Assembly: GCF_003337555.1 (NCBI RefSeq)
Contig: NZ_QPJK01000001.1
Coordinates: 62,001 to 126,000 of the forward strand
Direction of reading: 5' to 3'
Source of the DNA: Pseudorhodoferax soli
GTDB lineage: Bacteria > Pseudomonadota > Gammaproteobacteria > Burkholderiales > Burkholderiaceae_C
DNA length: 64,000 nucleotides
Shown here: one piece after another, positions 1 through 24,250 of the stretch
Numbering within the stretch: the stretch's first letter is position 1
Layout: each line of letters begins with the position of its first letter
Notes under the pieces: model-generated
The model's database searches: none
The model's input: the letters and a program-made list of their open reading frames with translations, nothing else
What the model was told of the DNA's origin: nothing
Made by a program: the position numbers and the translations under genes

Positions 1-979
1 GTGCCGGCGCCAGCGGCAATTCGCCGGCCATGGCACGGCGCGCACGCGCAACGGTCTGCTGCAGCGGCCGCCCCATGCGGCGCGCCCACAGCAGCGCCAT
101 GACGATGGCCGCCAGCAGGCTGGCCGCCACCGCGAGGCCGTTGTAGACCAGCAGCTGGCGCACCTGCGGGTGGTCCAGCCCCGACGGCATGCGGCCGACG
201 ATGCGCCAGCCCAGGGCGGGCACGGCGGCCACGGCCGCCAGCCAGGCGCGGCCGTCCCAGCGCAGCACGGGCGCAGCTGCCGCCGGCGCCGCGGCCGCCG
301 CCTGCAGCCAGGCCTGCAGGTCCGGCCGGTCGGGCGCGCCGGCGACGGTGTGCGCGACGACGTCGCCGCCCGGGCCGACCACCCACATGGGCGCGGCATC
401 GCCGCCCACCACCAGGGCCACCGTCCGCACCAGTGCCTCGGCCGACAGCTCGACCACGATGGCATGGCCCTGCCGATCGCGCACGGCGGCCGCCAGCGTC
501 GGCGCGCCGCTGACCGGCGACAGGTGGCCGCCGTCCCAGGCCATGCCAGCCCCGCCGGGCAGCGATGCGAACAGCCGGCTGCGCGACAGGTCGCGTCCAA
601 GCAGCGCGGCACGCCGGTCGCGCTGCGCACGTGGCAGCCCGAGCTGCTGGATCCGGCCATCGGGTCCGAGCCGGTACATCGCCACCGCCACCTGGGCGTT
701 GTCGATGCTGGTGTCGAGCAGGCTGTCGGCCTGGCCGGCCGGAACCTGGTCGAGCAGCATGCCCACCTGCGCCAGCTGGCCCTCCACGGTCTGCGGCAGC
801 AGCACCAGGCGCGCGGCCATGCCATCGACTTCGCGCTGCAGCAGCGCCTGACCCTGGCGCCCGATCTCGGGGATGCGGTAGAGCAGCAGCGCGCCGCCGG
901 CCAGCGCGGAGCTGACCAGCATCGCCACCAGCAGCAGGGCGGTCAGGTGGTCGGCGAGCCGCCAGGCGTGCGGCTTCAT
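1..979 (-). CDS. Sensor histidine kinase HK1, N-terminal part (cut by window edge)
   Basis: This is the first ~326 codons of a membrane sensor kinase whose catalytic part lies outside the window. It opens with a basic stretch (MKPHAWRLADHL), then a hydrophobic segment at about residues 12-35, a ~240-residue periplasmic region and a second hydrophobic segment just before a HAMP-like stretch (WARRMGRPLQQTVARA). The periplasmic region has the dCache-like landmarks of the seven paralogs upstream: a YRLGPDGRI strand, LLGRDLSRSRLF, and WVVGPGGDVVAHT. The start is an ATG whose first bases overlap the stop of HK2 (ATGA), so it is the last visible gene of the array. No SBP gene lies between it and HK2. 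The assignment as a kinase rests on paralogy with HK2-HK8, because the HisKA and ATPase domains are not visible. Confidence 0.85.
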   Translation of the reverse strand, partial: MKPHAWRLADHLTALLLVAMLVSSALAGGALLLYRIPEIGRQGQALLQREVDGMAARLVLLPQTVEGQLAQVGMLLDQVPAGQADSLLDTSIDNAQVAVAMYRLGPDGRIQQLGLPRAQRDRRAALLGRDLSRSRLFASLPGGAGMAWDGGHLSPVSGAPTLAAAVRDRQGHAIVVELSAEALVRTVALVVGGDAAPMWVVGPGGDVVAHTVAGAPDRPDLQAWLQAAAAAPAAAAPVLRWDGRAWLAAVAAVPALGWRIVGRMPSGLDHPQVRQLLVYNGLAVAASLLAAIVMALLWARRMGRPLQQTVARARRAMAGELPLAPA

Positions 980-3282
980 GGCAGCGGCTCCAGCGCAGCC
1001 GGCGCAGACTGCGGCGCCTCGCTCGGCAGGCGCAGCATGAAGCAGGCGCCCTGCCCCGGCACGCTGTGCACCGTCAGCGCGCCGCCCAGCACGTTGACCA
1101 CCGCGTTGTAGCTGATGTGCAGCCCCAGCCCGCTGCCGCCGCGGCCCATCCGGGTGGTCATGAAGGGCTCGAAGATGCGGTCGATGTGCTCCGGCGCGAT
1201 GCCCTTGCCGTCGTCGGCCACATGCAGCCAGAACTGGCCGTCGTCGGCGCGCCCGGCGGACAGCCGCACCGTGCCGTGGTCGCGCCCGTCGAAGCCGTGC
1301 AGCGCGGCGTTCTGGATCAGGTTGCCGATGGTCTGGCCCAGCGCGCCGGGGTAGCTGTCCAGCAGCAGGCCGGTGGCCGGCACCTCGGTCTCGATGCGGT
1401 AGGGCGTGCGGCTGAAGCTGGGCTGCAGGCTCACCACCATCTCGTGCACTACCTCGCCGAGCTCGAAGCGGCGGCGCCGCGCACTGGTCTGGTCCACCGC
1501 CACCTGCTTGAAGCTCTGCACCAGGTCGGCGGCGCGGCGCAGGTTGCGCTGCGCGATGTCGATGCCCTGCTCCACGCTGTCGGTCAGCTGGCGCAGGTCG
1601 GCACGCCGGATGCCGGACTGCGCCAGCGCGCGGAAGCGGCGCGCCTCGTCGGCCACCGCGCTGACCGCCATCACGCCATTGCCCAACGGCGTGTTCAGCT
1701 CGTGTGCGACGCCGGCCACCAGCGCGCCCAGCGCGGCCATCTTCTCCGAATGCACCAGTTCGTCCTGCGCCAGGCGCAGCTGCTCGGCCGTGCGTGCCAG
1801 CTGCGCGTTGGCATCGGACAGGGCCTGCGTGCGCTGCGCCACGCGCTGCTCCAGCTCCTGGTTCAGCGCCTGCAGTTCGCGCTCGACACAGCGCAGCGCC
1901 GTCACGTCCACGTTGGTCCACACCACCCAGTGCGCGTTCGGCAGGCGCACGCGCTGGCCGAAAGACAGCATCTGCACCGGCTGGCCGTCGCGGCGCCACA
2001 TCGGAATCTCCAGCGCCATGCTGTCGCCCTGCATGGGCGCGATCCGCGCCAGTTGCTCGGCCGAAAACACGCCGACCTCCACGGCGGTGCGTCCCAGCAC
2101 GTCCTCGCGCCGGTGCCCCAGCACGCGGCACCAGGCCTCGTTCACGTCGAGCGCGCGGCCGCCGTTGTCGGCGTCGACCACAGCGGCGGCCACCGGCACG
2201 GCATTGAAGATGGCCTGGAACTTCTGCTGGCGCGCCTGCAGCGCAGCCGCCATGCCCTCGAGATCGCTGGAGACGGCGTTGAACTCGCGCACGCTGCCGC
2301 GCGGCCAGCTGTGGCCCGCGGCAGCGCCGGCGGTCGTGCGCGCCGCGCGCGCCAGGATGTCCTGCAGCGACCGGCTCATGCGGCGGGCCCAGACCGACGC
2401 GATCCACAGGCCGATGGCGACGGAGCCGGCGACGACGACGGCCGCGTAAGGCAGCAACTCGCGCACGGCGGGATGGGCCCAGCCGGCCGGCGTGCGGCCA
2501 ACCACGACCCAGCCCAGCCGCGTGGCCGGCACCGCCACGGCCCAGTAGCTGCGCTGCTCCAGCGAGAAGCCGCCCGGCGGCTCGGTGCCAGCGAGCGCCG
2601 CCTGCAGCAGCGGCCAGCCGTCCAGCTGCAGCTGCCCCACGTAGCGGCCCTGTTCGGTGTCGGCGCGGATGTTGGCAGTGCCATCCACCAGCCAGACATC
2701 GGACGTGCGGTCGTCCGCCGCGGTCTGCATCACCTCCTGCAGGAACGCGGCCGACGCCTCACCGATCAGCACGGCACCGTCGTTGCGGCGGTAGGCCAGG
2801 CCGACGGCCGGCGTGCTGCCGAGCAGCGACGGCTGGCTGCCGCTCCAGGCGGCGTCGCGGCCCGTGCGCACACCGCGGTACAGCGGGTTGTCCGACAGGT
2901 CGCGCCCGACCCACTCGGCCGCCAAGCCCGCGGCAGGCAGCGCCAGCGCACGCACCTGCCCAGCTGGCGACAGCAGGTACAGCGCCTGGAACTCCTGGCC
3001 GGCGCCCACATGGGTCTGCAGCAGCGCGCCGTCGGCCGCCGCGTCGTCGCCGCGCAGCACGGCAGCCAGCAGGATCAGGCGCGCCTGGCGTGCCGCCAGC
3101 AGCAGGTCCATGCGCGCGGCCACGTCGTGGGTCTGCTGGCGCAACAGGCGCCGGCTGTCCAGTTCGAGCTGCGGCAGCCGCCACAGCAGCCCGGAGACGA
3201 CGATCACCGTGAAGCTCAGCCCCATGGTGGCCAGCAACAAGGCCGCCAGGTGGCTGCGCAGACGCCAGGCCCGCTGCTTCAT
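976..3282 (-). CDS. Sensor histidine kinase HK2 (dCache-HAMP-PAS-HisKA-HATPase)
   Basis: A 768-residue inner-membrane hybrid-less sensor kinase. Hydrophobic segments at about 12-34 and 276-298 bracket a periplasmic dCache-like sensor (GRDLSDNPLYRGV near 127; WLVDGTANIRADT near 197). A HAMP-like linker, a PAS domain (about 355-465, DVNEAWCRVLGHRREDVLGRT) and a coiled coil (LNQELEQRVAQRTQAL) lead to HisKA with HELNTP, phosphoacceptor His527. The ATPase domain is complete: N box NLIQNAALHGF (654), DDGKGI (690), FEPFMTT, GRGGSGLGLHI. There is no receiver domain, so phosphate must go to a separate regulator. I chose the ATG at 3282 because it overlaps the HK3 stop (ATGA) and starts the conserved WRLRSHLAALL segment; the longer reading upstream is another frame of HK3. 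No SBP gene sits between HK3 and HK2. The ligand is unknown. Confidence 0.93.
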   Translation of the reverse strand: MKQRAWRLRSHLAALLLATMGLSFTVIVVSGLLWRLPQLELDSRRLLRQQTHDVAARMDLLLAARQARLILLAAVLRGDDAAADGALLQTHVGAGQEFQALYLLSPAGQVRALALPAAGLAAEWVGRDLSDNPLYRGVRTGRDAAWSGSQPSLLGSTPAVGLAYRRNDGAVLIGEASAAFLQEVMQTAADDRTSDVWLVDGTANIRADTEQGRYVGQLQLDGWPLLQAALAGTEPPGGFSLEQRSYWAVAVPATRLGWVVVGRTPAGWAHPAVRELLPYAAVVVAGSVAIGLWIASVWARRMSRSLQDILARAARTTAGAAAGHSWPRGSVREFNAVSSDLEGMAAALQARQQKFQAIFNAVPVAAAVVDADNGGRALDVNEAWCRVLGHRREDVLGRTAVEVGVFSAEQLARIAPMQGDSMALEIPMWRRDGQPVQMLSFGQRVRLPNAHWVVWTNVDVTALRCVERELQALNQELEQRVAQRTQALSDANAQLARTAEQLRLAQDELVHSEKMAALGALVAGVAHELNTPLGNGVMAVSAVADEARRFRALAQSGIRRADLRQLTDSVEQGIDIAQRNLRRAADLVQSFKQVAVDQTSARRRRFELGEVVHEMVVSLQPSFSRTPYRIETEVPATGLLLDSYPGALGQTIGNLIQNAALHGFDGRDHGTVRLSAGRADDGQFWLHVADDGKGIAPEHIDRIFEPFMTTRMGRGGSGLGLHISYNAVVNVLGGALTVHSVPGQGACFMLRLPSEAPQSAPAALEPLP

Positions 3283-5627
3283 GCAGAGCCCATGGCGCCG
3301 AAGTCGCTCGGCCGTTGCGCTGGCGCGCTGGCCGGCAGCCGCAGTTCGAAGCGGCTGCCCTCGCCCTCCACGCTGCGCACCGTCAACGTGCCGCCCAGCA
3401 CATCGACGACCGCGTTGTGGCTGATGTGCAGGCCCAGGCCCGTCCCCGCGCGCCCCATCTTCGTCGTCATGAAGGGCTCGAAGATGTGGTCGACGTGCTC
3501 GGGCGCGATGGGGTGCCCGTCGTCGGCCACGCACAGCCAGATGCGCCGGTCGTCAGCGCAAGTGGCGTCGCGCCCAGCGGTGATCCGCACCGTACCGCGG
3601 TCGCGGCCTTCGAAACCGTGCAGCAGCGCGTTCTGAACCAGGTTGCTCAGCGCCTGGCCCAGCGCGCCGGGGTAGCTGTCCAGCTGCAAGCCGCTCGCAG
3701 GCACGTCCACCTCGATGCGGTAGGGTGTGCGGCTGAAGCTGGGCCGCAGGCTCACCACGGTCTCGTGCACGACCTCGCTGATCTCGAAGCGGCGCCGCTG
3801 CGAACTGGTCTGGTCCACCGCGACCTGCTTGAAACTCTGGACCAACTCTGCCGCGCGGCGCAGATTGCGTTCTGCGATGTCCACGCACTGCGCCACGCTG
3901 TCCACCAGTTGCGCCAGATCGGCCCGTTTCACACCGTCGGCCGCGCCCGCCTTGAAGCGTTGCATGGCATGGGCCAGGGCGCTGACCGCCATGACGCCAT
4001 TGCCCAGCGGCGTGTTCAGTTCGTGCGCCACACCCGCCACCAGATGGCCGAGCGCCGCCATTTTCTCGGAGCGCACCAGTTCGTCCTGGGCCGTGCGCAA
4101 CTGCGCCACCGTTTGGGACAGCGCCTCGTGGGATGCCGCCAGGGCCGCGGTGCGCCGCTCCACGCGCGCTTCGAGTTGCTGGTTGAGATCGCGCAGCTCG
4201 GCTTCGATGCGGCGCATCGGGCTCACGTCCACACACACGCCGATGGTCAGCCTTGCGCTGGGCAGATCCACCAACCTGCCATACAGCTGCATCATCAGCC
4301 TGGAGCCATCGCCGCGCAGGAGCCAGGCGTCTTCGAGTGCCTCGTTGTTCAACACGCGTTGCTGCACGCGCGCGGCCGCTCCGTCATCCGTCCACAGCCC
4401 GATTTCGCGCGACGTGCGTCCGAGAACCTGCGCGCGGTCGCGCCCCAGCTCGCGGCACCAGACACTGTTGACGTCCACAAACCGGTACTCGTTGTCGCGG
4501 TCGCGTACCGTCATCGGCACGGGTGCTGCATTGAAGATGGCCTGGGCTGTCTGCTCGCGCTCCTGCAGCGTCATCGCCATCCGCTCCAGATCACTCGACA
4601 GGCGGTTGAACTCCGCAACCGACCCGTGTGGCCAGGACAGATCCAGCGCGCCGCCGGCCGTGGTCTGCGCCGCCCGGGCCACGATCCTCTGCAACGGCCG
4701 CACCAAGCGGCTGGCCCAGAACGGCGCCATCAGCAAGCCGATCACGGCACAAGCTGCGAACGCCGTGGCCACGTGCAGCACCAGGGTCAACACCTCCGGG
4801 TTGGCCAGCCCCGCCGGGGCCTTCGCAACGAAGTACCAGTCCAGCGCACGGGAATGGGCAGCGGCCACATGGAAGTCGCCGCCCTGAAAGCGCAGGCGCG
4901 TCGCCACCTCGCGGCCTTGCAGCAGATCCTGCATCAGCGGCCAGTTGCGAATGTTGAGCTTGCCCACGTCGTCGCCCTGGCCCGTGTGCGCGATGATCTC
5001 GCCGCTCCGGTCGACGACCCAGATGGACGACGAGCGCCCGCCCGCGGCCAGTTCGACCGTGCCCAGCAAGGTACCGATCGGTACTTCGGCAATCATCACG
5101 TGGCCGTCACCGTCCCGATAGGCCATGCCGGCAGTGAGATCGCCCGTCAAGATGGAGCGGTACCTGCCGCTCCAGACGACGCCGGTCTTCGTGGGAACAG
5201 CGCGGAACAGGCTGTTGGCCGACACGTCGCTGCCCAGCAGATCGGCGCGCCGCGCCTGCAGCGCGGCCGGCAAGCCCACCGCCTCCACGCGGCCTTGCGC
5301 AGAGACCCGGTAGACCACGCGCAGCGTGTTTCCATTGCGCACGCTCTTGTCGAGCAAGCTGTTGTAATGCTGCGGCGCCATGTCGTGCAGCAGAAGCTCC
5401 ACCAGCTCGAGCCGGGTCTGCCGCGTGCGCAACAGCAGTTCCATGCGCTCGGCCATCTCGCCCACCTCATGGCGCAGCGCGACCCGGCTGGCACGCTCCA
5501 GCCGCGGAATGCCATAGGCCAGCACCACGGCGCCCACCACCGCCAGCGTCAGCAGCATCGTCGCCATCAGCAGCGCCGACAGATGGCTGCGCAGCGACCA
5601 AACGCCCCAGGCTGCCGCGTGCCGCAT
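3279..5627 (-). CDS. Sensor histidine kinase HK3, partner of SBP-D
   Basis: A 782-residue paralog of HK2. Membrane segments lie at about 17-40 and 280-303. The periplasmic domain carries YRVSAQGRVEAVG, LLGSDVSANSLFRAV, IAEVPIGTLL and WVVDRSGEIIAHT. PAS spans about 362-470 (FVDVNSVWCRELGRDRAQV), then LNQQLEARVERRTAAL, HELNTP with His535, and an intact ATPase core (NLVQNALLHGF, DDGHPI, FEPFMTT, GRAGTGLGLHI). DDGHPI deviates from the DDGxGI of the other copies: the glycine of the G1 box is Pro here, so activity could be altered. The start can be GTG 5630 or ATG 5627; both overlap the SBP-D stop (GTGATG). I used the ATG. It is translationally coupled to SBP-D, which makes them a likely receptor pair. 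Confidence 0.92.
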   Translation of the reverse strand: MRHAAAWGVWSLRSHLSALLMATMLLTLAVVGAVVLAYGIPRLERASRVALRHEVGEMAERMELLLRTRQTRLELVELLLHDMAPQHYNSLLDKSVRNGNTLRVVYRVSAQGRVEAVGLPAALQARRADLLGSDVSANSLFRAVPTKTGVVWSGRYRSILTGDLTAGMAYRDGDGHVMIAEVPIGTLLGTVELAAGGRSSSIWVVDRSGEIIAHTGQGDDVGKLNIRNWPLMQDLLQGREVATRLRFQGGDFHVAAAHSRALDWYFVAKAPAGLANPEVLTLVLHVATAFAACAVIGLLMAPFWASRLVRPLQRIVARAAQTTAGGALDLSWPHGSVAEFNRLSSDLERMAMTLQEREQTAQAIFNAAPVPMTVRDRDNEYRFVDVNSVWCRELGRDRAQVLGRTSREIGLWTDDGAAARVQQRVLNNEALEDAWLLRGDGSRLMMQLYGRLVDLPSARLTIGVCVDVSPMRRIEAELRDLNQQLEARVERRTAALAASHEALSQTVAQLRTAQDELVRSEKMAALGHLVAGVAHELNTPLGNGVMAVSALAHAMQRFKAGAADGVKRADLAQLVDSVAQCVDIAERNLRRAAELVQSFKQVAVDQTSSQRRRFEISEVVHETVVSLRPSFSRTPYRIEVDVPASGLQLDSYPGALGQALSNLVQNALLHGFEGRDRGTVRITAGRDATCADDRRIWLCVADDGHPIAPEHVDHIFEPFMTTKMGRAGTGLGLHISHNAVVDVLGGTLTVRSVEGEGSRFELRLPASAPAQRPSDFGAMGSA

Positions 5628-6829
5628 CACAGGGGCACGAACTGGCCGTTGCGCACGATGCTGTAGTACGCAGCACGCGCACTGTCACCGAAGCGGTCGA
5701 AGCGGATCGGCTCCTGCACGCCCTGGTAGGGCTGGTTGCGCAGCACGGCATCGCGCAAGGACTCACCCTGCGCGGAGCGCGCCAAGGCCTCGGTGGCCAC
5801 CGTCACAGCGTCGTAGGAAAAGATTGCGCTGTAGGTGGGCTCCCGGCCAAAGCGCGCCATGTAGGCACGGTGGAAGGCCTGGTAGCCCGGCGAGGTGTCC
5901 GCGCGGTCGTGGGCCTGCGCCACCAGCATGCCTTCGACGGCCTGGCCACCCAGTTCGATCAGCGCCTCGCTGCCGTAGACCGCCGTGATCGGGATGCCTC
6001 GCGTCTGCTTGACCGCCTGCTGCGCAATCAGCGCCGCGTCCACGCTGGTGGTGCACGCCACCAGCCCGTCCGGCCGGCCGACCAACATGGTGCGCACCAC
6101 GTTCTCGAACGAGGTGTCCGGGTCGCGGCCGAACTCTGCGTCGGCCACCACCGTGCCCCCGAGTTCGGTGAATGCCAGCCGGAAGTCGTCGCGCAAGGAC
6201 ACGTAGTACGCGGGATTGCGCACGTCGGTGGCCAAAGCCACACGCCGTTGGCCACGTTCATACAGCCGGCGCGCCAGGTCACGCGCGTTGTCGCGGGTCG
6301 TGCGGTTGAGCCGGACCAGGTAGTCGTTCTTGCCCGCCAACGCCACAGCCGACACGACAGGGCTCAGCACCAGCAACCGGGCCTTGTCGATCTGCGGCAG
6401 CATCTGCACGGCGACATCGCTCGAATAGGGGCCGATCACGGTGTCGACCCGCGCATCGATCAGCGCTTGCACCGCCGCGGTGGCCTTCTCCGGGCCCGTG
6501 CCGTAGTCCTGCACGACCAGCTCCAGTTGCCGCCCCGCCACGCCACCTGCCTGGTTGCGCTCCTCGATGGCCAGCATCACCCCGTTGCGTCCGTCCTCGC
6601 TGAACACCGCCGTGCGGTCGGACAGGCCTACCAGCAAGCCGATGCGGATCGGCGGCTTGGGACCGCAGCCTGCGAGGCAGCACGCTGCCACAAGGAGGCA
6701 GGCCAACGACCGCCTCCGCCAGTTCTTGCAACCAGCCTCCTCGGCCCAGGTGCTGCGCAGGCCTGTCGGCGTGCTCGCGTGGACGTCCTCGTCGTCGCCG
6801 AAGAACTCCCTCGATTCTTGTTCATTCAT
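5627..6829 (-). CDS. SBP-D: leucine-binding-type periplasmic binding protein with a response-regulator relic at its N-terminus
   Basis: A 400-residue protein. From about residue 60 it is a type I periplasmic binding protein of the LivJ family: IRIGLLVGLSDRTAVF, SEDGRNGVMLAIEERNQAGG, IGPYSSDVAVQMLP, and the C-terminal YSIVRNGQFVPL. A lipoprotein signal is visible at 36-55 (NWRRRSLACLL then LAGC, lipid Cys55). The first 26 residues are not part of any SBP; they match the N-terminus of the response regulator at 22022-24250 (see the separate relic entry), so the signal has an abnormally long n-region. No better in-frame start lies nearer the lipobox. There are no ABC permease or ATPase neighbours. 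It probably binds a small ligand in the periplasm and presents it to HK3, which starts at its stop codon; transport would need subunits encoded elsewhere. Confidence 0.88.
   Translation of the reverse strand: MNEQESREFFGDDEDVHASTPTGLRSTWAEEAGCKNWRRRSLACLLVAACCLAGCGPKPPIRIGLLVGLSDRTAVFSEDGRNGVMLAIEERNQAGGVAGRQLELVVQDYGTGPEKATAAVQALIDARVDTVIGPYSSDVAVQMLPQIDKARLLVLSPVVSAVALAGKNDYLVRLNRTTRDNARDLARRLYERGQRRVALATDVRNPAYYVSLRDDFRLAFTELGGTVVADAEFGRDPDTSFENVVRTMLVGRPDGLVACTTSVDAALIAQQAVKQTRGIPITAVYGSEALIELGGQAVEGMLVAQAHDRADTSPGYQAFHRAYMARFGREPTYSAIFSYDAVTVATEALARSAQGESLRDAVLRNQPYQGVQEPIRFDRFGDSARAAYYSIVRNGQFVPL
6752..6829 (-). pseudogene. Relic of a response-regulator 5' end, fused in frame to SBP-D
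   Basis: The first 26 codons of SBP-D read MNEQESREFF, then DDEDVHASTPTGLRS. The intact regulator at 24250 begins MNDQELLEFV and, after 20 further residues, has DDDADVHESTAFGLRG around its REC acidic pocket. Both blocks and their order match, so an ancestral REC gene start was joined to an SBP signal peptide by at least two deletions: one between the blocks and one from the REC domain to the SBP start. The relic marks where a second response-regulator gene once headed this half of the array. It keeps the acidic pair but no phosphoacceptor Asp, so it cannot act as a receiver. Confidence 0.75.
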
Positions 6830-9259: not shown

Positions 9260-10392
9260 CGTGGCAGCCTCTCGAAGCGACCGTTGCGCACAACCGTGGG
9301 GTAGGCCGCGCGCACGGTGTCGCCAAAGCGGTCGAAGCGAATCGTTTGCTGCAGGCCTTCGTAGGGACCGTTCTGCAGCACCGCGTCCTTGGGGTCCTCG
9401 TCGGCTTTGCCGCGCACGCTGGCGCGCGCCAGCGCATCGGCCAGCACGCTGGTGGCGTCGTAGGCGGCGATCGCGCTGGCCGTGGGCGTTCTGCCGAAGC
9501 GTGCCTCGTAAGCAGAGACGAAGGCCAGGTAACGCGGCGAGTCGTCATCGCGCTGGTGCGTCTGCATGAACACCATGCCTTCCACTGCGCTGCCGCCCAG
9601 CTCGATCAAGGACGCATTGGCGGCCCAGTCCACAGCGGCCATCGGCAGCGCAGCCGCCAGCTTGGCCGCCTGCTGCGCCAGGCGCGCAACGTCTGTCGCA
9701 GGGCCGATGAACAGCAGGCCATCGGGCTGCGCGGCGAGCATCGTGCGCACTGCGTCTTCGTACGAGACAGCAGGCTCTGCGCCGAAGTCGGCCTGGGCCA
9801 CCACGGCGCCGCCCAGCGCGCTGAACGCCGCATGGAAGTCTTCGCTCCAGGTGGTGGAGAACACCGCGTTGCCCATGTCCCTGGCCAGTGCGATGCGCGT
9901 GTGACCACGCTCGTGCAGCAGTTGCGCATAGCTCTGCGCCGCCTGCCGCACCGTGCGGCCGATGCGGACCATGTAGTCGTCCTGGCTGGCCAGTGCGTTG
10001 GCCGCGACGTTCGGACTGAGCATCAGCAGCCGCGCTGCATTGGCCAGGGGCATGACCTCCAAACCCACTGCGCTGGAGTAGGGGCCGATCACGGCGACCA
10101 CGCGGGCTTCGCGCAAAGCCTGGAAGGCCGCGGGCACCCGGGCCAGCCCGTCGCCGTGGTCCTGCACGATCAGCTCGATCCGCCGCCCTTCGATGCCACC
10201 GGCCTGGTTGCGCTGTTCGACGCCGAGCATCACGCCGTTGCGTGCGTCCTCGCTGAAGCCCGATGCGCGCTCGGTCAGTCCCCCCAAGAAGCCGACCCGG
10301 ACCGGCTCCTTGGGACTGAATGCCGCCAGCCCGAGCAGAACAGCCAGGCCGCAGGCCCACAGCCTGCCGCCTCGGTGCATGTCGCGCGCCAT
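9256..10392 (-). CDS. SBP-C: leucine-binding-type periplasmic binding protein without a lipobox
   Basis: A 378-residue type I periplasmic binding protein: VRVGFLGGLTERASGF, SEDARNGVMLGVEQRNQAGG, IGPYSSAVGLEVMP, and the C-terminal TVVRNGRFERLPR. The signal segment is RLWACGLAVLLGLAAFS. Where SBP-A, B and D have G(A)C or (P/A)GC followed by the mature protein, this copy reads LAAFSPKEP, so the lipid-anchoring cysteine is lost and the protein should be soluble in the periplasm or held by an uncleaved signal. The start ATG lies 2 bases after the HK5 stop; HK4 follows with an ATGA overlap. It is the likely co-receptor of HK4. No transporter genes are linked. Confidence 0.9.
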   Translation of the reverse strand: MARDMHRGGRLWACGLAVLLGLAAFSPKEPVRVGFLGGLTERASGFSEDARNGVMLGVEQRNQAGGIEGRRIELIVQDHGDGLARVPAAFQALREARVVAVIGPYSSAVGLEVMPLANAARLLMLSPNVAANALASQDDYMVRIGRTVRQAAQSYAQLLHERGHTRIALARDMGNAVFSTTWSEDFHAAFSALGGAVVAQADFGAEPAVSYEDAVRTMLAAQPDGLLFIGPATDVARLAQQAAKLAAALPMAAVDWAANASLIELGGSAVEGMVFMQTHQRDDDSPRYLAFVSAYEARFGRTPTASAIAAYDATSVLADALARASVRGKADEDPKDAVLQNGPYEGLQQTIRFDRFGDTVRAAYPTVVRNGRFERLPR

Positions 10393-10394
10393 GT

Positions 10395-16215: not shown

Positions 16216-16268
16216 GGACACCCGCAGCGGCCGTTGCGCACGCAGTCGCCGCGCCCGCCCGTGTTCAT
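16212..16268 (-). pseudogene. 18-codon vestige of an SBP gene between HK7 and HK6
   Basis: A tiny frame with ATG at 16268 overlapping the HK7 stop (ATGA) and a TGA overlapping the HK6 ATG (ATGA) encodes MNTGGRGDCVRNGRCGCP. Its CVRNGRC core matches the invariant C-terminal end of the SBPs in this array (IVRNGRFE, VVRNGRFE, IVRNGQFV), also at DNA level: GTGCGCAACGGCCGCT here, GTGCGCAACGGGCGCT in SBP-B. So a complete SBP gene once stood here and was reduced in frame to its start and last ~10 codons, keeping translational coupling. It may still be translated as a coupling leader but cannot bind ligand. Confidence 0.8.
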
Positions 16269-18598
16269 GCGGCCCATGGCGCCTGCTCCTGTGCGCGCGG
16301 CGCCTGCGCCGGCAGGCGCAACTCGAAGCAGGCGCCCTCGCCCGGCACGCTCTGCACGGTCAGCGTGCCGCCCAGCAGCGTCGTCACGGCGTTGTGGCTG
16401 ATGTGCAGGCCCAACCCGGTGCCGCCGCGGCCCATGCGGGTGGTCATGAAGGGGTCGAACACGCGCGCGATGTGCTCGGGCGCGATGCCCCTGCCGTCGT
16501 CCGCCACGCGCAGCCGGATCGACTGGTCCTCCCCACGCCAGGCCGTGATGCGCACCGTGCCGGCGTCGCGGCCTTCGAAGCCATGCACCACCGCGTTCTG
16601 GATCAGGTTGCCCAGGACCTGGCCCAGCGCGCCGGGGTAGCTGTCCAGGCGCAGTCCCTCGGCCGGCACGTCCACCTCGATGCGCCAGGGCTTGCGCGAG
16701 AAGCTGGGCTTGAGGCTCACCACCATCTCGTGCACCACTTCGCCGACCTCGAAGCTGCGCCGCTGCGCGCTGGTGCGGTCCACCGCGACCTGCTTGAAGC
16801 TGTGCACCAGGTCGGCGGCCCGGTGCAGGTTGCGCTGGGCGATGTCGGTGCCCTGCTCCACGCGGTCCAGCAGCTGCTGCAGCGCGCTGCGCCGGATGCC
16901 CGCGGCCATGTCGGCCTGGAAGCGGCGCACCGCATCGGCCATGGCGCTGACCGCCATGACGGCGTTGCCCAGGGGGGTGTTGAGCTCGTGGGCCACGCCG
17001 GCCACCAGGCCGCCCAGCGCGGCCATCTTCTCGGTGCGCACCAGCTCTTCCTGCGCCGCACGCAACTGCGCCACGGTGGCGGCCAGCTCGGTGTTGGAGG
17101 CCGCCAGCGCCTCGGTGCGCTGTGCCACCCGCGCGCCGAGTTGCTGGTTGAGTTCGCGCAGCTGCTGTTCGACCTGGCGCATCGGGCCGACGTCCACCAC
17201 GGCCCACAGCATCAGGTCCTGCGTTGCCAGCACCACACGCTGCGCGAACACCTGCACCTGGATCGTGCTGCCGTCCCCGCGCTTGAGCACTGCCTCGTTC
17301 TGCAGCCGCGGCTGTTGCAGGCGCGTCTCCAGGGCCTCGCTCTGCGCCGTCGACACCATGCCGATGTCCATGCCCGTGCGGCCCAGCACCTGCTCGCGCC
17401 GCAAGCGGAACTCGCGGCACCAGGCCTCGTTGACATCGAGCAGGATGTAACCGCGGCGCGCATCGGTCACGCTCATGGGCACCGGCGCCGCGTTGAAGAT
17501 CGCGAAGAACTTGTGCTCGCGCTCCATCAAGGCGTTGGCCATCACCTCCAGGTGGCCGGACAGCTGGTTGAACTCCGCCACCTGGCCACGCGGCCAGGTG
17601 GCCTCGCCGATCTCGCCGATCTCGCCGCGGGTCGCGCGCGCCGTGCGGTCGAGGATGCGCTGCAGCGGCCGCGTCAGCCGCTCGGCCCAGAACGGCGCGA
17701 CCAGCAGGCCGACCAGCAGGCAGCCGGCAAAGGACAGCCCCAGGTAGGAGAGCAGGCGCTGCACACGCGGGTTGGCCCAGTCCTGCGGCGCATGGCCCAC
17801 GACATACCAGTCCAGCGCGCTGGAGTGCGCGATGGCCGCGCGGTGCGTCCGGCCGCGGTGCTCGAATGCGACCGTCGCCGTGCCGCCGGTCGGCTGCGCC
17901 TGCGTGGGTGGCCAGCCGCGCATGTCCGGCCGCTCCCGATCGAGCCCATCGCCGGTGTCGGCGAGCACATCGCCGTGGCGGTCGACGATCCAGACCGAGG
18001 CGGCCGTGCGCCCGGCCGCGACCTGCACCGCGCGCACCAGCGCCTGCGGGGACACTTCGGCGATCAGCACCCGGCCCTGTTCGTCGCGCACCGCCAGCCC
18101 CACGGCGCGCAGGCCGGTCAGCACCGAGCGGTAGCGCCCGCTCCAGACCGTGCCGGAGCGTTGCGAGACCTCCTGGAACAGGCTGTTGGTCGACAGGTCA
18201 CGGCCCACCAGGTCGCCCCGGCGGGACTGCCAGTCGCCCGACAGGCCGGCGGCCTGCACCACCCCGTCGGGCGAGAGCTGGTAGACGGCATCGAAGCGCA
18301 GGCCCGCGCGCAGGCCTTCGTCCAGCAGTGCATTGGCGGGGCCGGGTTCCGCGCCGTCCACCAGCGTGCCCAGCAGCTCGAGCCGGCTCTGTGCGGTGCC
18401 GAGCAGCAGCTCCAGCCGCCCGGCGAGCCGCTCCACCCCGGCCTGCAACTGGGCCTGGCTGCCCTGCTCGATCGCCGGCAGCCGCGTGAGCAGGATCGCC
18501 GTGCCCACCACGGTGACCGTCAGCAACATGGTGACGACCAGCAGCGCCGACAGGTGGGTGCGCATGCGCCAGGTGCGCGGGAGGGGCGCGGCCGCCAT
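16265..18598 (-). CDS. Sensor histidine kinase HK7
   Basis: A 777-residue paralog. Membrane segments lie at about 17-39 and 282-304. The sensor domain has YQLSPDGVVQAAG, LVGRDLSTNSLFQEV, IAEVSPQALV and WIVDRHGDVLADT. The HAMP-like linker contains GEIGEIGEA, encoded by three tandem copies of a 9-base unit (CTCGCCGAT on the plus strand from 17603), a possible slippage site. PAS spans about 367-472 (LLDVNEAWCREFRLRREQV). The catalytic His is 537 (HELNTP); the ATPase has NLIQNAVVHGF, DDGRGI, FDPFMTT and GRGGTGLGLHI. The start is ATG 18598 (or GTG 18601), overlapping the HK8 stop as GTGATG. No SBP gene precedes it, so it may share SBP-A with HK8. Confidence 0.92.
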   Translation of the reverse strand: MAAAPLPRTWRMRTHLSALLVVTMLLTVTVVGTAILLTRLPAIEQGSQAQLQAGVERLAGRLELLLGTAQSRLELLGTLVDGAEPGPANALLDEGLRAGLRFDAVYQLSPDGVVQAAGLSGDWQSRRGDLVGRDLSTNSLFQEVSQRSGTVWSGRYRSVLTGLRAVGLAVRDEQGRVLIAEVSPQALVRAVQVAAGRTAASVWIVDRHGDVLADTGDGLDRERPDMRGWPPTQAQPTGGTATVAFEHRGRTHRAAIAHSSALDWYVVGHAPQDWANPRVQRLLSYLGLSFAGCLLVGLLVAPFWAERLTRPLQRILDRTARATRGEIGEIGEATWPRGQVAEFNQLSGHLEVMANALMEREHKFFAIFNAAPVPMSVTDARRGYILLDVNEAWCREFRLRREQVLGRTGMDIGMVSTAQSEALETRLQQPRLQNEAVLKRGDGSTIQVQVFAQRVVLATQDLMLWAVVDVGPMRQVEQQLRELNQQLGARVAQRTEALAASNTELAATVAQLRAAQEELVRTEKMAALGGLVAGVAHELNTPLGNAVMAVSAMADAVRRFQADMAAGIRRSALQQLLDRVEQGTDIAQRNLHRAADLVHSFKQVAVDRTSAQRRSFEVGEVVHEMVVSLKPSFSRKPWRIEVDVPAEGLRLDSYPGALGQVLGNLIQNAVVHGFEGRDAGTVRITAWRGEDQSIRLRVADDGRGIAPEHIARVFDPFMTTRMGRGGTGLGLHISHNAVTTLLGGTLTVQSVPGEGACFELRLPAQAPRAQEQAPWAA

Positions 18599-20919
18599 CA
18601 CAGGACAGCCTCGGTTCCAGCCGCCGGCGCGGCGCGCGGCGCCACGGGCGCCAGCCGCATCTCGAACACGGCGCCCTGGCCCGGCGCGCTGTCCACCGTC
18701 AGCATGCCGCCCAGCAGCTGGACGACGGCGTTGTAGCTGATGTGCAGGCCGAGCCCGGTGCCACCCCGGCCCTTCTTGGTGGTCACGAAGGGATCGAAGA
18801 TGCGGCCAATGAGCGCGGGCGGGATGCCGACGCCGTCGTCGGCCACGCGCAGCCGGATGGTCTGGTCCTCGCCGCGCCCGGCCGTGATGCGCACCGTGCC
18901 GTGGTCGCGGCCGTCGAAGCCGTGGTGCACGGCGTTCTGGATCAGGTTGGCGAGGGCCTGGCCCAGGGGGCCGGGGTAGCTGTCCAGCCGCAGGCCGTGC
19001 TCGGGCACGTCCACGACGATGCGGTAGGGGGTGCGCGCGAAGGTCGGCCGCAGGCTGACCACCAGTTCGTGCACCACCTCGGCGAGTTCGAAACAGCGCC
19101 GCTGCGAACTCGTCTGGTCCACCGCCACCTGCTTGAAGTTGTGCACCAGATCGGCCGCGCGGTGCAGGTTGCGCCCGGCGATGTCGCAACCCTGCTCCAG
19201 GCCGCCGATCCAGTCCTGCAGCTGGGCCCGGCGCAGGCCGGCCTGCGCCGCGGCGCGGAAGCGGCGCGTCTCGTCGGCCACCGCGCTGATGGCCATGACG
19301 CCGTTGCCCAGCGGGGTGTTCAGCTCGTGCGCCACGCCGGCCACCAGCCCCCCCAGCGCGGCCATCTTCTCGGTCTGCACCAGTTCGGTCTGGGCCGAGC
19401 GCAGTTGCGCCAGGGTGTCGGACAGTTCCTCGTTGGCCATGGCCAGCGCATCGGCACGCTGGGCCACGCGCGCCTCCAGGTCGTGGTTGAGCGTGCGCAG
19501 CTCCTGCTCGACCGCGCGCAGCGCCCCGATGTTGATGCTGCCCCACACGACCAGGTTCTGGTCCTTGAAGCGCACCACGCGGCCGAAGGACTTGTAGAGC
19601 TTGGCCTCGCCGTTCTTGCAGATCACCTCGGCCTCGCCGACGAAGCTGCCGTCGTCCAGCGTGTGCAGCAGCGCCTCGTGCCGCTGCGTCGAATCCCACA
19701 TGCCCAGCTCCATCGAGTTCAGCCCGACTGCCTCGGCGCGGCTGTAGCCCATCTCCTCGCACCACACGTCGTTGACGTCCAGGAAGCTGTGGGCGTCGTC
19801 CATGTCGGTCAGCGCCATCGGCACCGGCGCCACGTTGAACAGCGCCTGCAGCTTGCGCTCGCGCTCCTGCACGGCGTGGCCCATGGCCTCCAGGTCGCTG
19901 GACAGCCGGTTGAACTCGGCCACCGGCCCGCGCGGCCAGGGGCTGCCGCCCGCGCGGCCAGCCGTGTTCAACGCGGCGCGCGTCACGATGGCCTGCAGCG
20001 GCCGCACCAGCCGGCCGGCCCAGAACGGCGCCACCAAGAGGCCGATCAGCAGGCAGCCCACGAAGCTGGCGCCGGCATACAGCGCCGTGCTGCGCACCTC
20101 CGGATGGCTCCAGCCACGCGGCATGCTGGCGATCACGTACCAGCCCAGCGTCGGCGCGGCTGCCAGCGCCGCCTGCATGGGGCGCCGCTCGAATTCGAAG
20201 TCGGCAGGCACCGGCTGGCCTCGCACCGCGGCCTGCAGCAGCGGCGAGTCGTGCAGGTTGAGCCGGCCCATCTGGCGGCCCTGGGTGTCGGCGACCACCT
20301 CGCCGCCGCCATCCACCACCCAGACCACCGCGGCGTCCTCGCCAGCGACCGAGCGCAGATCCTCCAGCAGCACCGCCGTGGGCACCTCGCCGATCAGCAC
20401 GTGGCCACCCGCGTCGCGGTGCGCCACGCCGACCACCAGGGCGCCGGACTGCGTCGACAGCAGGCGGCCGCTCCAGGCCGTGGGCTGGGCGGCGCTGACG
20501 GCCTTGAACAAGGCGTTGGACGACAGGTCACTGCCCAGGAAGTCCTGCACGTGCCCGCCCGCCTGCGCTGCCAGGCCCATGGCTTCGACCCGCCCGCGCG
20601 GCGACACCCGGTAGACGGCGCCGAACAGCCGGTCGCCGTGCAGGTTGACCGCCAGCACGGTGCCCGCCTGCTCCGGCGTGCGGCCCCGCAGCCTGCTGGC
20701 CATCAGTTCGAGCCTGGCCTGGCGTTCACCCAGCAGCAGCTCCAGCCGTTCGGCCACGTCGTGCACCTCGTCGGTCAGGGCCTGCAGGCTGGCGCGCTCG
20801 ATCTGCGGCACGCGCCAGACCACCAGCACGGTGCTGACCACAGCGAAGGTCAGCGCCATGGTCGTCAACAGCAGCGCAGAGAGGTGGTAGCGCAACCTCC
20901 AGACCCGCCCGGAGCGCAT
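18598..20919 (-). CDS. Sensor histidine kinase HK8, partner of SBP-A
   Basis: A 773-residue paralog and the first kinase of the transcript. Membrane segments lie at about 13-35 and 278-300. The sensor domain has YRVSPRGRVEAMG, FLGSDLSSNALFKAV, IGEVPTAVLL and WVVDGGGEVVADT. PAS spans about 358-466 (FLDVNDVWCEEMGYSRAEAVG) and contains the only cysteine-bearing strand of this position (VICKNGEAKLYKSFGR). The catalytic His is 531 (HELNTP); the ATPase has NLIQNAVHHGF, DDGVGI, FDPFVTT and GRGGTGLGLHI. The start is ATG 20919 (GTG 20922 also possible), overlapping the SBP-A stop. Proximity to the response regulator makes it the best candidate for the founding kinase of the array. Confidence 0.92.
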   Translation of the reverse strand: MRSGRVWRLRYHLSALLLTTMALTFAVVSTVLVVWRVPQIERASLQALTDEVHDVAERLELLLGERQARLELMASRLRGRTPEQAGTVLAVNLHGDRLFGAVYRVSPRGRVEAMGLAAQAGGHVQDFLGSDLSSNALFKAVSAAQPTAWSGRLLSTQSGALVVGVAHRDAGGHVLIGEVPTAVLLEDLRSVAGEDAAVVWVVDGGGEVVADTQGRQMGRLNLHDSPLLQAAVRGQPVPADFEFERRPMQAALAAAPTLGWYVIASMPRGWSHPEVRSTALYAGASFVGCLLIGLLVAPFWAGRLVRPLQAIVTRAALNTAGRAGGSPWPRGPVAEFNRLSSDLEAMGHAVQERERKLQALFNVAPVPMALTDMDDAHSFLDVNDVWCEEMGYSRAEAVGLNSMELGMWDSTQRHEALLHTLDDGSFVGEAEVICKNGEAKLYKSFGRVVRFKDQNLVVWGSINIGALRAVEQELRTLNHDLEARVAQRADALAMANEELSDTLAQLRSAQTELVQTEKMAALGGLVAGVAHELNTPLGNGVMAISAVADETRRFRAAAQAGLRRAQLQDWIGGLEQGCDIAGRNLHRAADLVHNFKQVAVDQTSSQRRCFELAEVVHELVVSLRPTFARTPYRIVVDVPEHGLRLDSYPGPLGQALANLIQNAVHHGFDGRDHGTVRITAGRGEDQTIRLRVADDGVGIPPALIGRIFDPFVTTKKGRGGTGLGLHISYNAVVQLLGGMLTVDSAPGQGAVFEMRLAPVAPRAAPAAGTEAVL

Positions 20920-22025
20920 CACAGTGGCTCGAAGCGACCGCCGCGCACGACGACGAAGTACGGAAGGCGCACGGTGTCGCCGAAGCGGTCGAGCACGATG
21001 GGCTGCTGCAGCCCGTCGTAGGGTCCATGGCGCAGCACGGCCTGCTTGAGCGGCTCGCCCGCGTCCCGGCGCGCCAGCGCCTGCACCAGCACGGTGACGG
21101 CATCGTGCGAGAGCACGGCGTGGTAGCCCGGCAGGCGGCCGAAGCGGGCCTGGTAGGCATCGACGAAGCCGAGGTAGCGCGGCGCGCGGCTGTTGCGGTC
21201 GTGCAGCTGGCCGACCACGATGCCCTCCACCGCCGTGCCGCCCAGCGCGATGAGGGCCTCGCCTCCGGCACCTTCGGCCACAGTGACCGGCAGCGCAGCG
21301 GCCTGCTTGCGCGCCTGCAGGGCCAGGCGCACGGCGTCCACGCTGCCGCAGGCGAAGACCAGGCCGTCCGGACCGCTGGCCACCAGCGCGCGCACGACGT
21401 CGCCATAGGCGGTGGACGCGTCGGAGGCGAAGCCCTGGTGCGCCGTCAGCACGCCGCCCAGGGCCAGGAAGGCGGAGCTGAACCCGTCGCGCCAGGCCAT
21501 GGCGTAGACGCCGTTGCGTGCATCCGTGGCGGTGGCGACGGCCAGCCGACGCTGGCCGCGCTGCCACAGCAGTTCGGCGTAGGCGCGCGTGAGCTCGCGC
21601 GTGGAGGGGTTGAGCATCACGAAGGCATCGTCCTGGCGCGCCAGCACCGAGGCCGTGGCGGCCGGACTGAGCATCAGCACGCCGGCCTTCTCCGCCAGCG
21701 GCAGCAGTTCCTGCACGACCTTGCTGGAGAACGGCCCGACGGTGGCCTGCACGCCCGCGGCGACCAGCGCCTGCATGGCGCGGCGGGCGGCATCGGCATC
21801 TTCGCCGTTGTCCTGCACCAGCAGTTCCAGGGGCTGGCCGCCGATGCCACCGGCCAGGTTGGCCTGTTCCACGGCCAACATGGTGCCGTTGCGCCCGTCC
21901 TCGCTGGTGACCGCCGTGCGCCCCGACAGGCCGGCCAGGAAACCGAGCTTGAACGGCACCGGGCGGCTGCAGGCGCCGAGCGTGGCCAGTGTGCCCATGC
22001 CCGCCAGCAGGGTGCGGCGTCTCAC
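20919..22025 (-). CDS. SBP-A: lipoprotein periplasmic binding protein, leucine-binding type
   Basis: A 368-residue type I periplasmic binding protein. The GTG start overlaps the response-regulator stop (GTGA), giving MRRRTLLAGMGTLATLGAC with lipid Cys19; the longer open frame upstream is a different frame of the regulator. The mature part has FKLGFLAGLSGRTAV, SEDGRNGTMLAVEQANLAGG, VGPFSSKVVQELLP and the C-terminal VVVRGGRFEPL. It is the shortest and cleanest of the four SBPs and lies between the regulator and HK8, both coupled by overlapping codons. It probably acts as ligand-binding co-receptor of HK8 (and perhaps HK7). No permease or ATPase gene is linked, which argues against a dedicated uptake role. 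Confidence 0.9.
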   Translation of the reverse strand: MRRRTLLAGMGTLATLGACSRPVPFKLGFLAGLSGRTAVTSEDGRNGTMLAVEQANLAGGIGGQPLELLVQDNGEDADAARRAMQALVAAGVQATVGPFSSKVVQELLPLAEKAGVLMLSPAATASVLARQDDAFVMLNPSTRELTRAYAELLWQRGQRRLAVATATDARNGVYAMAWRDGFSSAFLALGGVLTAHQGFASDASTAYGDVVRALVASGPDGLVFACGSVDAVRLALQARKQAAALPVTVAEGAGGEALIALGGTAVEGIVVGQLHDRNSRAPRYLGFVDAYQARFGRLPGYHAVLSHDAVTVLVQALARRDAGEPLKQAVLRHGPYDGLQQPIVLDRFGDTVRLPYFVVVRGGRFEPL

Positions 22026-24250
22026 GCCCCGCCTTGGCGCTGGGCCAGCCAGGCGGTGAAGGCGTCCAGTGGCATCGGCTTGCCGTACAGGTAGCCCTGC
22101 ACCTCGTCGCAGCCGAGCAGGCGCAGGGCCTGCGCTTGCGAAGCGGTTTCCACGCCTTCGGCCAGCACCTGCATGCCGAGCCGGTGGCCCAGCGGCACGA
22201 TCATTTCGGCGATGCGGGCCGTGGCGTCGCCCGCGTCCAGCGCGGTGATGAAGGCGCGGTCGATCTTGAGCCGGTCGGCCGGCAGGCGGTCCAGGTAGGA
22301 GAGCGACGAGAAACCCGTGCCAAAGTCGTCGATCGCCACCGCAATGCCGCGCGCCTTGATCTGCCCCAGCAGGGCCGAGACGCGCTCGATGCCCATCACG
22401 GCGACCGATTCGGTGATCTCCAGCTCCAGGCTGTCGGCGGGCAGTGCGGCCTCGCTCAGCGCCGCCTCGACCTCGGCCAGGAATTGCGGCTGTGCGAACT
22501 GCAGCGGCGAGACATTGACCGCCATGCGCAGGTCGGGCTGGTCCTGGCGCAGGCGGACCAGCGCGCGCAGCGCCGTGCGCAGCACCCAGTGGCCGATCGG
22601 CACGATCAGGCCGGACTGCTCGGCCACCGGAATGAACTCGGCCGGCGAGATGAAGCGCCCGTCTTCGGTGCGCCAGCGCAACAGCGCCTCGGCACCGACC
22701 ACGCGGCCGCTGGCCAGCGCGAGCTGAGGCTGGTAGACGACGAACAGGTTCTCGCGGTCGAAGGCCTGCTGCAGGCCGTGCAGCAGCCGCGTGCGCTCGC
22801 GCGTGGCCACGCCCACCTCGGCCGTGTAGGTCTGGATGTGGCCCTGGCCTGCGCCCTTGGACTGCTTGAGCGCAATCAGGGCGTTCTTGAACAGATCCTG
22901 GCCGCTGCCGGCGTCGGCATCGCTCGCCACGAGGCCGATGGAGAAGGACACCGGCCGCGCCACGCCCTCGACCACATACACCGGTTCGAGCAGCGCAGCC
23001 AGCCGGTCCGGCGCCAGCGCCGCGCGCGCGAACCAGATGCCGAAGGTGTCGCCGGCCACGCGCGCCAGCAGGCACTGCGGCGGCAGGCCCAGCGCGAGCC
23101 GCCGCGCGATGGCCTGCAGCAGCAGGTCGCCGTAGGCGTAGCCGAACATGTCGTTGGTTTCGGCGAAGCGGTCGATGTCCAGCAATGCCAGCATCTGGCC
23201 CGCGCCGCGGCCCGCGCCCAACTCGCGGTCGATGTGCTGCAGCAGCGCCAGCCGGTTGGGCATGTCGAGCAGCCGGTCCTTGAAGGCGTACTCGCGCAGG
23301 CGCGCCAGCAGGTCGATGTTGGAGGCCGACAGCGCGATGTTGGCGCAGAACACCTGCAGCAGCCGCGCATCCACGTCGCGCAGCGGCGCGCCGGCCCGCA
23401 CGAAGGCGGCAAAGTCGTTGCCGTCGCGGCCGGCGAAGAACAGCGTCAGGTGGCCGGGCTCCAGCACGTTGCGGCGCTCGGCCAGCGCACGGGCCAGGCT
23501 GTCGGACACCAGGCTGTCGCCGATGTCGGCGATGTCCCGGTCCATCAGTCCGGCGAAGGCACCTGCGGCGGCGATCACCGTGTACTGCGTCGCCGCCTCG
23601 TCGTCGGTCGTGCGGCGCGATGCACAGACCAGACCCTCAGGCTGCACGCCGATCAGGCTGGCGATCTGCGTGATCACGCCCTCGGCGAAGGTGCGCTGGC
23701 CCTGCTCTGCCAGGAACTGGTTGCTGGCCTCGATGATCTTTTCCAGCCCGCGGCGGCTCGCGTCCAGCCGCAGCAACTGGTCATAGGAGCGGATCGCCGC
23801 CGTCAGCGCCGTGTAGAGCTTGACGCGCGTGAGCTCGCTCTTGGTCTTGTAGTCGTTGATGTCGTAGCGCCGGATGGTGTCGATCTCGGGCGCATGGCCG
23901 GGCTGGCCGGTGCGCAGCACGATGCGCACATGGGCCAGGCCCAGTTCGCCGCGGATGCGGTCCACCGTCGCCAGGCCCGCCTGCTCGCTCTCCATGACCA
24001 CATCGAGCAGGATCACCGCGATGTCCTGCTCACGCGCGAGCAGTGCGACCGACTCCGCGCCGGAATAGGCATGCAGCAGCTGCAGCGGCCGGCCCTCGAT
24101 CTCCATGCCACGCAGGCCGAACGCCGTGCTCTCGTGCACATCGGCATCGTCGTCGACGACGAGGATGCGCCAGGGTGTGGCGCCCTGTGGTGTCTCCAGC
24201 GCGGGTGGGGCGCCGTCCTCCACGAATTCCAGTAGTTCTTGATCGTTCAT
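22022..24250 (-). CDS. Response regulator REC-DUF3369-GGDEF(degenerate)-EAL, predicted cyclic-di-GMP phosphodiesterase
   Basis: A 742-residue soluble regulator and the only response regulator in the window. REC spans about 28-155: acidic VDDDAD (32-37), phosphoacceptor Asp83 (VILLDVVM), Thr114 (LRTGQPG), Lys135 or 137. A DUF3369 segment (about 160-310) follows, as is usual for this regulator class. The GGDEF domain (345-480) has AGDTF at 399-403 in place of GGDEF, so it should not make cyclic-di-GMP. The EAL domain (490-735) has its key motifs: EALLRW (521), NVSPLQF, ELEITES, DDFGTGFSS, LKIDRAFI, EGVET and QGYLYGKP, so hydrolysis to pGpG is expected. I chose the ATG at 24250 (MNDQELLEF) over an in-frame ATG 51 bases upstream because the relic at 6829 starts with the same peptide. 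It heads the array and is the natural phosphate acceptor of HK1-HK8. Confidence 0.93.
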   Translation of the reverse strand: MNDQELLEFVEDGAPPALETPQGATPWRILVVDDDADVHESTAFGLRGMEIEGRPLQLLHAYSGAESVALLAREQDIAVILLDVVMESEQAGLATVDRIRGELGLAHVRIVLRTGQPGHAPEIDTIRRYDINDYKTKSELTRVKLYTALTAAIRSYDQLLRLDASRRGLEKIIEASNQFLAEQGQRTFAEGVITQIASLIGVQPEGLVCASRRTTDDEAATQYTVIAAAGAFAGLMDRDIADIGDSLVSDSLARALAERRNVLEPGHLTLFFAGRDGNDFAAFVRAGAPLRDVDARLLQVFCANIALSASNIDLLARLREYAFKDRLLDMPNRLALLQHIDRELGAGRGAGQMLALLDIDRFAETNDMFGYAYGDLLLQAIARRLALGLPPQCLLARVAGDTFGIWFARAALAPDRLAALLEPVYVVEGVARPVSFSIGLVASDADAGSGQDLFKNALIALKQSKGAGQGHIQTYTAEVGVATRERTRLLHGLQQAFDRENLFVVYQPQLALASGRVVGAEALLRWRTEDGRFISPAEFIPVAEQSGLIVPIGHWVLRTALRALVRLRQDQPDLRMAVNVSPLQFAQPQFLAEVEAALSEAALPADSLELEITESVAVMGIERVSALLGQIKARGIAVAIDDFGTGFSSLSYLDRLPADRLKIDRAFITALDAGDATARIAEMIVPLGHRLGMQVLAEGVETASQAQALRLLGCDEVQGYLYGKPMPLDAFTAWLAQRQGGA

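Follow-up and report, generated by a model that had tools for sequence, protein, structure and literature searches.

A tandem array of histidine kinases and predicted lipoprotein binding proteins with one EAL response regulator in Pseudorhodoferax soli, probably expanded from a single operon

We analysed 64,000 nucleotides (nt) of the Pseudorhodoferax soli genome (contig NZ_QPJK01000001.1; hereafter the window, C1:62001-126000 of genome G000), in which a large two-component array occupies the minus strand from position 24250 to position 1. Pfam and family models recognise one response regulator (RR), four substrate-binding proteins (SBPs) and eight paralogous histidine kinases (HKs), transcribed in the order RR, SBP1, HK1, HK2, HK3, SBP2, HK4, SBP3, HK5, SBP4, HK6, HK7 and HK8. 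The layout is operon-like: stop and start codons overlap (ATGA, GTGA or TGATG) at nine of the 12 junctions, and the remaining three are gaps of 2, 43 and 108 nt. We consider it probable that this locus is a tandemly expanded two-component system, in which an ancestral operon of an EAL regulator, a lipoprotein SBP and a dCache kinase was amplified into an array of four to eight kinases. An earlier reading made from the sequence only had described eight kinases of the same architecture, four SBPs and a single EAL regulator with no ATP-binding cassette (ABC) permease or ATPase, and Pfam, the family models and the junctions all agree with this description. No permease or ATPase gene was found inside the array by any of the three, and because the junctions overlap or leave gaps of only 2-108 nt, there is no space for one; the combination of SBP, permease and ATPase genes that marks an ABC uptake system is absent from the array. 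Past HK8 the family models found no further kinase and, for SBPs, a single weak match of 58 bits, which lies in L011 some 8 kb away.

The array stands at one fixed locus, between an HtrA gene and a 2CSK_N kinase gene, in all six genomes of the genus, and its content ranges over 4-8 kinases, 0-4 SBPs and 1-2 RRs. P. soli (G000) has eight kinases, four SBPs and one RR; the corresponding numbers are six, two and two in G001, four, four and one in G002, four, three and two in G003, and four, none and one in G005, and G004 has three whole kinases and a split one with two SBPs and two RRs. In a tree of the sensors HK1, HK2, HK3, HK4, HK7 and HK8 define orthologue groups, and the groups of the SBP tree stand before the matching kinase groups (the trees and identity counts use 29 of the 30 kinases, the split kinase of G004, in two pieces, being excluded).

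Outside the genus the same genes occur as single units. A kinase profile run against 60 genomes near this one (E up to 1e-110) matched 12: the six of the genus at full length, their whole genes scoring more than 870 bits, and a further six in which the reported stretch covers the core or second half only. A search with the sensor alone matched 37 of 399 genomes of the family; it scored at most five candidates a genome, which makes its copy counts for the genus lower bounds. The six genus genomes were multi-copy and the 31 others single-copy, except G356, whose two matches lie on different contigs. Order-wide and class-wide draws gave 6/399 and 1/369 matching genomes, this genome being counted in both. 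We read 20 of the 32 places outside the genus (19 genomes). RR, SBP and HK follow each other in that order, in single copy, at 11 of these loci from eight genera (in L202 the DUF3369 stretch of the RR is unmatched); five loci have RR and HK without an SBP, with L203 carrying them on opposite strands, and four have SBP and HK without an RR, one of them cut by a contig end. Thus the RR adjoins the HK at 16 of the 20 loci and the SBP adjoins it at 15 (one cut by a contig end). Among the best 80 named kinase relatives, which mostly match in the core only, 24 have an RR with this type of N-terminus no further than 3 kb away, and in 17 it covers REC with DUF3369; set against 16 of 20, this means that the link to the RR is tight only for kinases with the array-type sensor. 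Since the single RR-SBP-HK operon is found in that order at 11 of 20 loci in other genera, while arrays were seen only in one genus, the single operon is likely the parent form and the array its expansion.

The RR (22022-24250, minus strand) has the domain order REC-DUF3369-GGDEF-EAL. The receiver residues D33, D34, D83, T114 and K135 are all present in the motif table, and Asp83, counted from the ATG at 24250, holds as the receiver Asp named previously. The EAL motifs EALL, NVS, EITES, DDFGT, K, EGVE and QGY were all found; the diguanylate cyclase signature GG[DE]EF is not present and is replaced by a degenerate AGDTF. Because the receiver residues and EAL motifs are intact and the GGDEF motif reads AGDTF, the natural reading of this protein is a phosphodiesterase controlled by phosphorylation. 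A regulator survey of the genome, which covered the DUF3369 family, found two such proteins, of which only the array RR retains the receiver Asp. The other has Gly at position 83 and DG replacing the acidic pair, so the array RR is the sole DUF3369 protein found in the genome that would be able to take phosphate at this position. Since the only alternative of this family lacks the phospho-acceptor, shared use of the array RR by the kinases of this genome appears likely. The second DUF3369 protein, of DUF3369-GGDEF-EAL type, is encoded together with a SiaC gene and a GGDEF gene at G000:C3:437068-440506 (L013 15068-18506), and is by its residues a receiver-dead relative of the array RR. An Rfam scan of window positions 1-26000 (E up to 0.1) gave no match, either to a cyclic-di-GMP (c-di-GMP) riboswitch or to any other RNA.

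The kinases share a first transmembrane segment, a dCache domain, a second transmembrane segment with a HAMP-like linker, PAS, HisKA and HATPase_c. They lie on the minus strand at 18598-20919 (HK1), 16265-18598 (HK2), 13885-16221 (HK3), 10395-12752 (HK4, H-box HEIKTP), 6938-9259 (HK5), 3279-5627 (HK6, G1 box DDGHPI with Gly changed to Pro), 976-3282 (HK7) and 1-979 (HK8). HK8 leaves the window at its edge: 326 residues of its N-terminal part align inside, the rest runs to about C1:60634, and the whole gene in the genome is at C1:60667-62979. HK2 to HK7 are 49-54% identical to HK1. Pfam places dCache_1 over the cut-off in HK2 and below it in HK1 and HK3 to HK7; HK8, for which Pfam gives HATPase_c and weak PAS and HisKA, has no Pfam dCache match at E up to 0.01, and its sensor was located by alignment. 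A structure model of the HK5 sensor (mean predicted local distance difference test score, pLDDT, 83) resembles in Foldseek the dCache domains of chemoreceptors, including Tlp3, as well as KinD and DctB. The phospho-acceptor His is present in all eight kinases here and in 28 of the 29 whole array kinases of the genus, and the locus also carries the ATP-binding N and G boxes (altered in the G1 box of HK6; the F-box is altered in HK8) and the receiver Asp, Thr and Lys expected of a two-component system.

Mean pairwise identity among the eight kinases is 0.73 in the DHp (H-box) helix and 0.70 in the CA (ATPase) domain, and 0.40 and 0.39 in dCache and PAS, respectively; judged by these values the pattern is one of diverse input and conserved core, which is no proof of a single partner. 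For the orthologue pairs tested, which exclude HK5, HK6, SBP3 and SBP4 and include HK7 and HK8, the ratio of nonsynonymous to synonymous divergence (dN/dS, NG86) is 0.15-0.57 for whole kinases and 0.14-0.33 for SBPs, which shows purifying selection on the genes compared. We rejected recent gene conversion among the kinases: exact tracts shared by two kinases of a genome reach at most 54 nt, and 42 nt in P. soli; those listed, from at most six pairs per genome, begin at nt 1431-2188 of the kinase stretches, in the coiled-coil, DHp and CA part, without any long converted block. Sensor and core trees conflict for several kinases (G003 HK4 with G004 HK5, and G001 HK6); this suggests domain exchange at an earlier time, although the core branches are weak.

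One kinase lineage appears to depart from this pattern. Between G000 and G002 the ratio of dN in the core to dN in the sensor is 0.54 for HK1, 0.22 for HK2 and 0.44 for HK3, and 1.83 for HK4 (bootstrap 1.05-3.32). The H-box of G002 HK4 reads VASELNAPLGH where VAHELNTPLGN is usual, with Ser for His and Ala for Thr in an open frame; dN/dS for the SBP before it, compared with the G000 orthologue, is 0.156, and the HK4 relatives in G003 and G004 retain the phospho-acceptor His. The sensor of G002 HK4, like this SBP, is strongly constrained, and its retention while the catalytic core drifts suggests, for this one orthologue pair, that G002 HK4 is a sensor-only subunit. A precedent is given in a study of ChrS and HrrS (PMC9491836): ChrS made catalytically dead still works via its sister kinase HrrS, and the native proteins heterodimerise in a two-hybrid test in which a truncated form did not. 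It is conceivable, if rather unlikely, that the locus is a combinatorial receptor array, in which sister kinases with similar dimerisation helices would form mixed dimers and sensor-only subunits of the HK4 line would carry the signal of an SBP to the core of a partner. If this were the case, then gene copy number would set the number of receptor mixtures acting on one c-di-GMP output.

The four SBPs are Peripla_BP_6 proteins on the minus strand: SBP1 (20919-22025, with a GTG start that overlaps the RR stop), SBP2 (12749-13888) and SBP4 (5627-6829) are predicted lipoproteins, and SBP3 (9256-10392) is the only one of the four without a lipobox Cys. SBP2 to SBP4 are 46-50% identical to SBP1, whose model (mean pLDDT 84) resembles Leu/Ile/Val-type binding proteins of the LivJ/LivK type in Foldseek. 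A lipobox Cys at the expected position, with a small residue before it, is found in 14 of the 15 array SBPs of the genus and in the SBPs beside single kinases (14/14 and 2/2), that is, in 30 of 31 kinase-linked SBPs, as against two of 17 controls, taken from the 21 other Peripla_BP_6 matches of this genome (Fisher p 1.9e-9, a guide value since the rows are related). Chance seems to explain the two control hits, and the lipobox rule may have overlooked a genuine lipoprotein among the controls, L149, which has a long linker. Kinase-linked SBPs thus look like lipoproteins. According to PMC11113362, SBPs of Gram-negative bacteria occur as diffusible proteins. The same paper states that gene neighbours make up 10 of the 11 characterised SBP/kinase couples, and that three nearby SBPs showed no interaction with their kinases when tested. 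In Accumulibacter (L049, L054) an SBP of the array family with a lipobox Cys precedes a kinase frame of far greater length (1478 and 1587 residues), by its gene content a further SBP-kinase variant.

An alternative explanation is that the SBPs serve ordinary uptake by a Liv-type transporter whose genes lie elsewhere, with the dCache domains of the kinases sensing small molecules directly. The fold of the array SBPs is that of amino-acid uptake proteins, dCache domains such as those of Tlp3 and Mlp24 bind amino acids directly according to the titles of structure entries, and G005 has array kinases without SBPs. However, the array holds no transporter genes, the lipobox Cys separates kinase-linked SBPs from the other family members of the genome, strong matches to array SBPs (E up to 1e-35) in the six genus genomes lie only inside arrays (15/15), and after the four array SBPs, which score at least 621 bits, the best protein of this genome reaches 99.6 bits. 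We regard this alternative as unlikely. A receptor role fits a tethered SBP without transporter genes, and because the kinase-linked SBPs are predicted lipoproteins, a role as co-receptor is favoured over transport; we infer that the array SBPs are dedicated co-receptors and not transport proteins.

The arrays also record loss. The start of the SBP4 frame (6751-6829) matches the start of the RR gene (best blastn E 1e-6, set of 22 kb), and its peptide scores 51 in a comparison that covered seven of nine regulator starts, with a maximum of 45 in 2000 shuffles. This relic of a deleted second RR, comprising the start codon and the first part of the receiver in frame before SBP4, shows that a second RR was once present in this genome; translation of SBP4 may begin at the old RR start or at an inner start. 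In G004 a 34-residue SBP tail lies between two kinases (tblastn best E 1e-10, set of 11 gaps). Both relics show gene loss inside the genus. In G002, G003 and G004 the array ends in an SBP gene that no array kinase gene follows. One frame covers the model in 29 of 30 kinase genes, with one stop inside the matched stretch, near its end, in one kinase gene each of G001 and G003; the exception is the G004 kinase at G004:C55:21691-23968 (L138/L139), which is split over two frames. Both RRs of G001 (G001:C12:92506-94489 and 100542-102969; L132/L133) are in frame to about residue 625 and have their EAL ends in other frames, with a repeated stretch in the EAL end of the second; this is either a draft error or a real loss of EAL output.

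The second array RR in three of six genomes, and formerly in this one, would also be expected if the array kinases served RRs elsewhere in the genome, as a hub and not a closed many-to-one circuit, and our survey was confined to DUF3369 regulators; the sole other DUF3369 protein has no receiver Asp, and we think a hub improbable. Still less probable is a decaying tandem duplication in which some kinases work and others are leftovers without a role: the relics, the split G004 frame, the out-of-frame EAL ends in G001, the His to Ser change of G002 HK4 and the altered G1 box of HK6 fit it, but 29 of 30 kinase genes are in one frame and whole-gene dN/dS stays at 0.15-0.57 in the pairs tested, which include HK7 and HK8 and lack HK5 and HK6.

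For the expanded system that we favour we propose the following working, in which we infer phosphotransfer, the direction of control, the ligands and the SBP contact. The kinases would dimerise in the inner membrane, the state of each dCache domain depending on a ligand or on a tethered SBP that carries its ligand, and this input would put the cores in a kinase or phosphatase state. The cores would then pass phosphate to Asp83 of the single RR or strip phosphate from it, and the state of Asp83 would alter EAL activity, so that several outside chemical cues would be summed as one rate of c-di-GMP breakdown and the c-di-GMP level would fall or rise accordingly. Kinases without an SBP gene of their own may share one or sense directly.

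Several observations weigh against this proposal or narrow it. Three of the six genus genomes have two array RRs. The earlier claim that all kinases share the regulator is well supported for this genome, given the operon-like run, the only Asp-bearing DUF3369 protein and the single RR-SBP-HK units elsewhere, but does not extend to the whole genus, and this genome too carries the relic of a second RR. The G1 box of HK6 carries Pro and the F-box and ATP-lid region of HK8 are altered, so some of the eight kinases are possibly inactive, and not all eight may be active. High DHp identity is a family trait: it is still 0.70 to a Curvibacter outgroup kinase, in which core and sensor follow the same trend, and we rejected DHp likeness as proof of a common partner since the outgroup is almost equally alike. 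LuxQ is absent from the best 50 structures listed for the HK5 sensor model. An SBP gene stands directly in front of four of the eight kinases, HK2, HK3, HK7 and HK8 having none, and G005 has four kinases and no array-type SBP at E up to 1e-35; there is probably not one SBP per kinase. Distance matrices of SBPs and downstream kinase sensors correlate over 12 pairs (r 0.905, reached by none of 1000 within-genome reassignments). For seven SBPs, however, r with the sensor is 0.82 downstream and 0.78 upstream, and with the core 0.74 downstream and 0.88 upstream. We rejected this correlation as a sign of contact: shared descent explains it, and the upstream neighbour does equally well or, for the core, better. 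Of the earlier proposal that each SBP reports to the adjacent kinase, the co-receptor role is thus supported by position, restriction to arrays and predicted lipoprotein anchoring, and the strict pairing is not.

Elsewhere in the window, on the plus strand at 34101-42864, a bacterial alpha-2-macroglobulin gene (a frame of 1953 residues) is followed by a penicillin-binding protein gene with BiPBP_C, which we take to be the usual YfhM-PbpC-type pair. A TctC-type SBP of the tripartite tricarboxylate receptor kind is encoded at 44383-45417, also on the plus strand.

LuxQ is a hybrid kinase within a phosphorelay, and LuxP is the soluble binder of autoinducer-2 in Vibrio. The array resembles LuxP-LuxQ in joining a type I binding protein to a kinase with a periplasmic tandem PAS/dCache sensor and several kinases to one output; the SBP gene lies beside the kinase gene for four of the eight kinases, and the dCache sensor is found by Pfam in HK2, weakly in HK1 and HK3 to HK7 and not in HK8, and in the HK5 model. 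It differs in its non-hybrid tandem paralogous kinases, predicted lipoprotein SBPs and EAL output. TorT-TorS also uses a type I binding protein as a kinase co-receptor, but the TorS sensor is helical and hybrid, with a single kinase and a transcription output; NspS-MbaA likewise has an SBP governing a c-di-GMP enzyme, but the SBP acts on the membrane enzyme itself without a kinase step; and in Bacillus KinA-E several kinases converge on the one receiver of Spo0F, but the kinases are scattered in the genome, have no SBPs and feed a phosphorelay. The regulators described in PMC9756655 also join REC and DUF3369 to a c-di-GMP phosphodiesterase domain, which is HD-GYP where the array RR has EAL. 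The closest relatives are the single operons of the same bacterial family (Hylemonella L045 and genomes among L195-L210), with the same gene families in the same order but a single kinase and a single SBP. Kinases that depend on an SBP are a known kind, as are many-to-one kinase circuits and phosphodiesterases of the REC-DUF3369 type. In the titles and abstract starts of the open-licence PubMed Central literature we found no description of an array in which up to eight paralogous kinases stand in tandem with lipoprotein SBPs and a single c-di-GMP RR.

In the usual account of their evolution, two-component systems duplicate and the new pairs then become insulated. Here duplication appears to multiply the inputs at one locus while keeping one output, and the six species stand at different stages of this process, relics included. 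Together with the single operons this gives a natural series of one, four, six and eight kinases with none to four SBPs for tests of the evolution of many-to-one signalling, SBP co-receptors and kinase heterodimers, and the series also bears on where external chemistry is summed into c-di-GMP.

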